The position numbers and the translations under genes were made by a program. A stretch of DNA of 20,529 nucleotides. Origin: a virus. The notes under the pieces were generated by a model. That model did no database searches. It worked only from the letters and a program-made list of their open reading frames with translations, and had not been told where the DNA came from. The stretch covers positions 1-20,529 of IMG/VR virus record IMGVR_UViG_3300030104_002573; one strand, given 5' to 3'. This document shows positions 764 through 1,365 of this stretch, piece after piece; positions within the stretch are counted from its first letter, which is position 1, and every line of letters starts with the position of its first letter.

Positions 764-786
764 AAAAAGGGGGTCTTATAACCCCC
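764..786 (-). terminator. Intrinsic terminator upstream of hli cluster
   Basis: Minus-strand hairpin with a 6-bp stem GGGGGT/ACCCCC (781-786 with 769-774) and 6-base loop, followed directly by TTTTT (768-764). It ends transcripts of the 52-codon gene at 801-959 and isolates them from the hli promoter just downstream. Confidence 0.8.
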
Positions 787-800
787 ATAAGTATGCATTA

Positions 801-959
801 TCAATAGTCATCATTACTGTTACGGTTTACCCACTCGGCATTGTTTCTACAGTATGCATCAGCATCTATTTGCATCTGCCAATGAGTAAGGGTGTGAAGA
901 GTCTGTATTAGAACAGCACAAAACAATAACAACACTGGCCCAAACCAGAGTGGATGCAT
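801..959 (-). CDS. Small membrane-anchored protein (52 aa), unknown
   Basis: Not recognised. Starts MHPLWFGPVLLLFCAVLIQT: one N-terminal transmembrane helix (about residues 4-20), then a polar tail ending VNRNSNDDY. The start is set by a good ribosome-binding site AGGAG at 968-972, 8 bases upstream. The longer ORF back to 1190 would read through the structured leader and is rejected. An ATG at 983 (adding 8 residues) is possible but has no ribosome-binding site. The gene is a single unit, with an extended -10 promoter near 1084, a folded leader, and a terminator just after the stop. Confidence 0.65.
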   Translation of the reverse strand: MHPLWFGPVLLLFCAVLIQTLHTLTHWQMQIDADAYCRNNAEWVNRNSNDDY

Positions 960-1000
960 TACTAAGTCTCCTGTCTTTTTCATAGGAAGAATATTAGAAT

Positions 1001-1078
1001 GGTGGGTTCCTATAGCCGCTATTCCTGAACCCACCAAAGGGGAATACCGCAGTCGTAGGTAGCGAAAAACAAACGACT
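1001..1078 (-). promoter_or_regulatory. Structured 5' leader RNA (candidate cis-regulatory element)
   Basis: Between an extended -10 promoter and the 52-codon gene the minus-strand RNA can form two hairpins. Hairpin A pairs AGTCGT (1078-1073) with ACGACT (1056-1051). Hairpin B pairs GGTGGGTTC (1035-1027) with GAACCCACC (1009-1001), nine perfect pairs, with ATAGC/GCTAT nested inside. Loop A holds CGCTA (1064-1060), complementary to TAGCG (1021-1017) in hairpin B, so a kissing contact is possible. A competing 6-bp pairing TATTCC (1046-1041) with GGAATA (1025-1020) excludes it. Such mutually exclusive pairings resemble a riboswitch or protein-binding leader. The cyanophage-associated wcaG and PhotoRC RNA motifs are known families to compare; I cannot assign it to either. 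Confidence 0.5.
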
Positions 1079-1083
1079 CACAT

Positions 1084-1092
1084 ATTATAGCA
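1084..1092 (-). promoter_or_regulatory. Extended -10 promoter for the structured leader
   Basis: Minus strand reads TGCTATAAT, a perfect extended -10 (TG-N-TATAAT). No good -35 is present at 17-18 bases upstream (best TTCCAT). It overlaps the 3' end of the 89-codon gene. The predicted start near 1077 would place the whole two-hairpin element at the 5' end of the transcript. Confidence 0.5.
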
Positions 1093-1095
1093 TAC

Positions 1096-1365
1096 TTACA
1101 ACTGAAATGGAAGATAACTGCATTCATCATCCGCTTCTCTTGAAGCAAGTTCAATAATTCTTGATACTTTACTAAACAGTTCTCTATCAACTCTCTTATT
1201 CCAAGACATGCAATTTACCATATTATTAGTAAGCTGCACAAATCTATCAGCTTCTTCGGTAGTCAACTTTAATTTAGCAGAACCACATCTTGGTTCATTA
1301 GCTTTGAGAAGAAAACTGAAATGCTCTTCAGTAATAGGAGTTCCTCTTTGACTTAGGACTGACAT
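1096..1365 (-). CDS. Hypothetical protein (89 aa)
   Basis: Not recognised. A soluble, mainly helical small protein starting MSVLSQRGTPITEEHFSF, with a charged centre (LTTEEADRFVQL) and three cysteines, ending YLPFQL. An in-frame ATG at 1452 would extend it through the terminator hairpin at 1397-1425, so the start at 1365 was preferred. It lies just downstream of a TATAAT box at 1387-1392, giving a leader of about 15 bases. No strong ribosome-binding site is visible, which lowers certainty about the exact start. Function unknown. Confidence 0.65.
   Translation of the reverse strand: MSVLSQRGTPITEEHFSFLLKANEPRCGSAKLKLTTEEADRFVQLTNNMVNCMSWNKRVDRELFSKVSRIIELASREADDECSYLPFQL

Follow-up and report, generated by a model that had tools for sequence, protein, structure and literature searches.

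Comparative sequence analysis indicates that the minus strand at positions 1001 to 1078 of the window, the whole 20,529-nt stretch of viral DNA analysed here, encodes a cyanophage-specific structured RNA in which a 5' hairpin, P1, is followed by an H-type pseudoknot. The RNA is about 80 nt long, and members with an expanded P1 loop reach up to about 226 nt. The reading we favour, at roughly even confidence, is that it represents a new family of small phage RNA, probably stable, non-coding and trans-acting, and not a switch for the downstream gene. The initial annotation of this DNA had entertained a new class of RNA, and this part of it is borne out: the element is a genuine structured RNA outside all known Rfam families.

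Organization of the locus

T4-like cyanophages rank with the ocean's most abundant viruses. The window belongs to a 22.5-kb virus contig, and the hli-like ORFs and T4-like cyanophage matches within it identify it as cyanophage DNA; no tRNA gene is present in the window itself. The parts of the locus are as follows.

1092-1084 (box 1089-1084), minus strand: extended -10, TGC-TATAAT, sigma70-type, from sequence
1083-1079, minus strand: 5-nt spacer from the -10 to P1
1078-1073, minus strand: P1 5' strand AGTCGT (AGUCGU) and predicted transcript 5' end, from a blind pairing test
1056-1051, minus strand: P1 3' strand ACGACT (ACGACU), pairing with 1078-1073
1052-1049, minus strand: conserved CUGC from P1 to the pseudoknot helix, its first two bases common with P1
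1049, 1048 and 1046-1041, minus strand: 5' strand of the pseudoknot helix S1, including TATTCC at 1046-1041, from covariation
1040-1036, minus strand: loop L1, CCUUU (CCUU in the short form)
1035-1027, minus strand: 5' strand of the S2 hairpin, GGTGGGTTC as DNA and GGUGGGUUC as RNA, from comparative pairing
1025-1020, 1018 and 1017, minus strand: 3' strand of S1, with GGAATA at 1025-1020, from covariation
1016-1010, minus strand: loop L3, GCUAUAG, the conserved core loop (mostly GCGAUAG in relatives)
1009-1001, minus strand: 3' strand of the S2 hairpin, GAACCCACC, and 3' boundary of the conserved RNA, from comparative pairing
801..983, minus strand: small membrane-protein ORF downstream, an optional neighbour outside the RNA
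769..786, minus strand: terminator-like hairpin behind the 52-aa ORF

Behind P1, the order on this strand is CTGC, TATTCC, CCTTT, GGTGGGTTC, A, GGAATA, GCG, GCTATAG and GAACCCACC. Three features of the initial annotation recur here unchanged: the 9-bp perfect hairpin (S2; GGTGGGTTC at 1035-1027 with GAACCCACC at 1009-1001), which also has comparative support; the second, 6-bp hairpin (AGTCGT at 1078-1073 with ACGACT at 1056-1051), which is P1; and a start just behind an extended -10 (TGC-TATAAT, 1092-1084), located 5 nt before P1. The downstream ORF has 60 aa when read from ATG 983 and 52 aa from the in-frame ATG 959, the latter preceded by the Shine–Dalgarno (SD) sequence AGGAG. In the window, the RNA would lie between an early-type promoter and this 52-aa gene, on the transcript of the gene. 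Inside the 52-aa ORF, 27 nt (window positions 915-941) match 17 Streptomyces phage records exactly, probably by chance.

Comparative evidence for the pseudoknot

Orthologous loci were reached through the 52-aa downstream protein, and some of them carried the same leader. Pattern scans of viral contigs recovered at least 120 matches to the long form and at least 120 to an 8-bp short form (CCTTGGT); all counts from these scans are lower bounds, and the loci are mostly metagenomic fragments. The long-form pattern fixed the TTTGGT, TTCAG, GGC, A and AGGAA columns, which left three S2 pairs unable to vary, and imposed several L3 positions; it left the pseudoknot helix free except for two bases (the G of columns 34 and 42).

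Across 90 distinct long forms among the matches listed, the 6-bp pairing combines with the 9-bp hairpin into a single H-type pseudoknot, in which 99.7% of 1530 pair cells are paired. Covariation, which had been proposed as a check on relatives, is pronounced in these same listed sequences: 263 cells are changed on both sides against about 70 in shuffles (69.8, sd 6.3), and the covariation score is 0.505 against 0.166 for shuffles and 0.035-0.079 for slid versions. Among the long forms listed, helix S1 shows double-sided change in six of its eight pairs, and the six-pair pseudoknot helix occurs in 36 different sequence combinations, which is far more than one inherited change, though related sequences are not independent. 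The 90 long forms contain 79 G·U and no A·C pairs and 54 short forms contain 46 and none, giving 125 G·U against 0 A·C among the matches listed. Neither a DNA-level constraint nor one acting on the opposite strand would produce such an asymmetry, so selection acts on the transcribed minus strand, as RNA.

The loops and junctions are likewise conserved. CUGC is invariant in the 90 long and 54 short forms among the matches listed and was imposed by neither of the patterns that fetched them; the CC of L1 is invariant in the listed long forms and was also free in the long-form pattern. L1 bases could possibly form major-groove triples with S2. A variant pattern lacking the U at position 31 found zero matches, so U31 seems fixed. 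Minimum-energy folding is unremarkable against shuffles (z of -1.1 and -1.4; 28 and 20 of 200 shuffled sequences fold equally well); energy alone therefore proves nothing, and the comparative evidence is decisive instead.

These comparisons alter the picture of competing pairings drawn in the initial annotation. The 6-bp pairing, described as mutually exclusive with other structure, is real and covaries, but it coexists with the S2 hairpin in the pseudoknot and excludes only the nested stem. That stem (1022-1019/1015-1012) is present in the window sequence but is not conserved: only 57% of its cells are paired, no pair shows compensation, and it is broken in most relatives. Since the nested stem is unconserved, the pairings do not compete, and a switch between them finds no basis. 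A 5-bp loop-loop contact (probably CGCTA/TAGCG) is possible in the window; it cannot be general, because it uses pseudoknot bases and many relatives have different P1 loops, such as GAAA or GAGAAATA among the matches listed.

Promoter position and P1

Of 113 relatives among the matches listed whose P1 has 5 bp or more, 83 have a gap of exactly 5 nt between the end of the -10 and P1. P1 was also examined blind, its 5' strand being taken as the 6 nt directly behind such a 5-nt gap: in 109 relatives among the matches listed, five of the six positions pair in 88-95%, and overall pairing is 0.85 against 0.70 when permuted and at most 0.44 when slid. The fixed spacing predicts that transcripts should begin at P1, and a start there would sequester the transcript 5' end in a helix. 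One clade has a P1 loop expanded to well over 100 nt, and its promoter still abuts P1; locus L165 has a 9-bp P1 and a total of 226 nt, whereas P1 in the other expanded-loop members was judged by eye. The extra P1-loop domain of about 150 nt (L165:4543-4768; GGTTCTACTGCCCGAAC...GTAGGGGTTCAGGTGTAAGCGATTCCC...) recurs across contigs of this clade and has no match in Rfam.

A 27-nt stretch comprising the promoter and the start of P1 (window positions 1072-1098) also has an exact match in Syn1 and S-RIM44. Both genomes are without the pseudoknot despite sharing these 27 nt, a pattern that looks like spread of the promoter independently of the element.

Phyletic distribution

The element occurs once in each of nine complete isolate genomes (P-SSM2, ACG-2014f, S-B43, RB11-B, S-SM2, S-SCSM2R, SynMITS9220M01, S-SKS1 and Bellamy) and is also carried by P-SSM5, S-H68 and S-B05; none of the isolate records examined has an annotation of its own for it. 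It was not found in nine other cyanophage isolate genomes by exact patterns or by model R1, the means used in all absence tests, R1 having been built from long forms. The long- and short-form patterns had zero matches in the genomes of 84,980 bacterial and archaeal species, and a host origin of the RNA was rejected on this result. A single contig, that of locus L283, was found to have two strong copies, 1.2 kb apart (G019:C1:20506-21735). A divergent copy scoring 20.9 bits (L024:1045-1103) retains P1, CUGC, an 8-bp S2 and GGCGA, with the rest mostly changed.

Genomic context

The two forms differ in their neighbors. Among the matches listed, long forms with enough sequence lie before protein ORFs or have no nearby tRNA in 113 cases and precede a tRNA in 11, while 111 of 118 short forms are located upstream of a tRNA, mostly tRNA-Arg and sometimes tRNA-Pro, at a distance of 2-6 nt with few exceptions. 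No promoter is evident ahead of some short forms, and in some the P1 5' strand seems, by eye, to fall inside the end of the upstream coding sequence. ACG-2014f and S-B43 share the order element, tRNA-Arg, manA RNA, tRNA, in which a few nt separate each part from the next.

The protein neighbors are mutually unrelated. By sequence reading we take them to include Sm-like proteins before gp43, PurM, PstS, peptide deformylase, ThyX and a halogenase (putative names), in addition to the 52-aa membrane protein and a protein beginning 'MALTEKFK'. In all 11 distinct cases of the MALTEKFK clade among the matches listed, the gene has its own TTGACN-TATAAT promoter, with the -35 starting anywhere between 1 nt inside S2 and 30 nt past its end; this gene thus does not require the element as its leader. 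In relatives, tRNAs or -35 boxes start directly behind S2.

The initial annotation had presented the element as a candidate regulatory RNA preceding a small membrane protein near hli genes. The neighbor is indeed there, but the hli neighborhood is incidental, and regulation of this gene is not supported. Among 85 loci of the 52-aa gene, some of them truncated, the element is present at 11 plus one divergent copy; at other loci the gene directly follows a similar promoter, with no element in between, and elsewhere the element precedes tRNAs and unrelated genes. It is followed by a terminator-like hairpin in only 3 of 186 cases among the matches listed, and no conserved pairing with downstream sequence was detected (14.27 observed against 14.19 in mispaired controls). 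A pairing of AUAGGAA with the downstream UUCCUAU (988-982) is specific to the window and was set aside, as there is no enrichment over the mispaired controls.

With ORF starts assigned mechanically, a start codon lies 15-24 nt behind S2, across an AU-rich spacer, in 58 of 101 long forms among the matches listed. SD-like sequences accompany 3 of 74 such near starts among the matches listed, many of them from one gene family, compared with 29-37% of the other genes of these phages.

Functional interpretation

The presence of one copy per genome, the usual position at a transcript start and the frequent fusion to tRNAs suggest an RNA that is probably functional in its own right. Varied downstream genes, near-absent terminators, downstream complementarity equal to controls and the single copy form a pattern that fits an RNA gene; a cis switch, by the argument used here, would be expected next to coherent genes and with an expression platform, and might be present more than once per genome. 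When the next gene is a tRNA, RNase P cleavage a few nt past S2 would free the RNA, and the few-nt spacers in the element, tRNA-Arg, manA RNA, tRNA order are compatible with such release. The RNA would then probably act by offering its pseudoknot to a protein, whether of host or phage, or to the ribosome. We only tentatively extend this to a trans effector of marine cyanophages, whose rigid pseudoknot would occupy a host protein or the ribosome during infection after release by RNase P from a tRNA transcript or expression from its own promoter. Possible host targets would be a ribonuclease or an RNA-guarded defence toxin, and manA RNA, which these arrays also contain, would be another such effector. 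Against a trans-acting RNA stand the absence of a terminator behind the element, so that in protein contexts it must be excised or stay on the mRNA; the clustering of start codons and the scarcity of SD sequences, which a cis role in translation predicts; the nine cyanophage genomes without the RNA; and the contig with two copies.

The chief rival, which would predict those translational features, is a cis-acting leader, in which the 5'-terminal P1-pseudoknot would protect the transcript, position ribosomes on SD-less start codons, or both, with the T4 gene 32 leader pseudoknot as a precedent, and before tRNAs would protect or shape the pre-tRNA leader. A 5' end paired from about its first base, starts 15-24 nt behind S2 in those 58 of 101 listed long forms with almost no SD, and the missing terminator all agree with it. 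We nevertheless consider it rather unlikely, since the element is single-copy per genome, is followed by unrelated mRNAs and tRNAs, precedes a gene with its own promoter in one clade and is optional at the 52-aa gene; the P1 5' strand of some short forms apparently (by eye) lies in the end of an upstream coding sequence, and the 15-24 nt spacing could simply be minimum ribosome room.

A metabolite riboswitch, with the pseudoknot as an aptamer controlling the downstream gene, is improbable. SAM-II and preQ1 aptamers are compact pseudoknots with conserved loops, and the element resembles an aptamer in its compactness, its conserved L1 and L3 and, in some phages, its 5'-leader position at metabolic genes such as purM and pstS; its downstream genes are incoherent and include tRNAs, however, there is no sign of an expression platform (no conserved downstream pairing; 3 of 186 terminator-like among the matches listed), there is little SD to hide, and each genome has one copy. 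Least probable of all, in our estimate, is a transcription-level element, either a put-like RNA making RNA polymerase termination-resistant or part of a mobile promoter cassette. Its location directly behind early-type promoters and its precise presence or absence between promoter and 52-aa gene would suit such a role, but some short forms have no evident promoter before them, the copy number is one per genome, and a pure DNA cassette is excluded by the RNA constraint seen in G·U without A·C. The isolates with the element (P-SSM2, S-SM2, Bellamy and S-SKS1) make the choice between these readings and the favored small phage RNA directly testable.

Comparison with known RNAs

No Rfam covariance model recognised the window's element, at cutoffs up to E 5 and E 10, or the copies in relatives, and membership in any known Rfam family was rejected accordingly. 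We found nothing on regulatory cassettes of T4-type phages in the open-access literature. The cyanophage non-coding RNAs named in the papers found are CFrI, PhotoRC-II, wcaG, manA, glnA (the glutamine riboswitch) and abiF (PMC9964418, PMC9602691, PMC10665884), most of them identified through Rfam; the lists in PMC9964418 and PMC9602691 were made by Rfam search and cannot see this pseudoknot family.

A close contextual parallel is manA RNA (RF01745), a structured RNA of T4-like cyanophages with one copy per genome, found among tRNAs or before unrelated genes and often near the element. It differs in having a 192-position model and another structure; its 55.2-bit threshold is not reached by the element, and in relatives it is a separate neighboring locus. 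It is single-copy in all 17 positive records tested. These sequence features suggest that manA RNA may be a processed stable RNA, and a single-copy, strongly covarying RNA beside tRNA genes casts doubt on a cis-regulatory label for it. At L211:3130-3340 and L210:3136-3346, manA RNA, which Rfam labels cis-regulatory, lies a few nt from the flanking tRNAs.

The family is new, while its possible kind, small RNAs of phage tRNA arrays, has long been known from T4 rnaC and rnaD (species 1 and 2 stable RNAs), for which, to our knowledge, no function is known. These lie in the phage tRNA array beside tRNA-Arg, a position shared by the short form (111 of 118 among the matches listed), but on the opposite side of tRNA-Arg; as homologues they were rejected, since model R1 does not match them. 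Together with pseudoknot RNA antitoxins, such array RNAs are the nearest in kind to the element. The T4 gene 32 leader is also a phage pseudoknot in a 5' leader, and it autoregulates a single gene, whereas the gene beside the element varies. Type III antitoxin RNAs are short repeats upstream of a toxin gene. Two of them, ToxI and CptI, are small trans-acting pseudoknot RNAs, ToxI being of the H-type (PMC5086642) that the element shares. The element is instead a single unit with a P1, in one copy per genome with no host copy found, and reading of the sequences revealed no toxin gene among its diverse neighbors; the relation is one of analogy only.

The initial annotation had named wcaG and PhotoRC as possible affiliations, and both are likewise RNAs of cyanophage or marine origin from presumed leaders; wcaG is associated with exopolysaccharide or high-light genes and PhotoRC with probable psbA (PMC2864571). 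Neither affiliation survived the Rfam check, which gave no match up to E 10: the element does not reach the 42-bit threshold of wcaG (RF01761), and the PhotoRC-I and PhotoRC-II models (RF01716, RF01717) do not match it. No psbA was recognised among the listed downstream proteins. The search itself works, as wcaG was found elsewhere on the contigs of some relatives. Judged by eye, the wcaG matches at L089:7968-8061 and L105:507-600 look repeat-like (GGTTTC...AAGTGG) and might be located in coding sequence.
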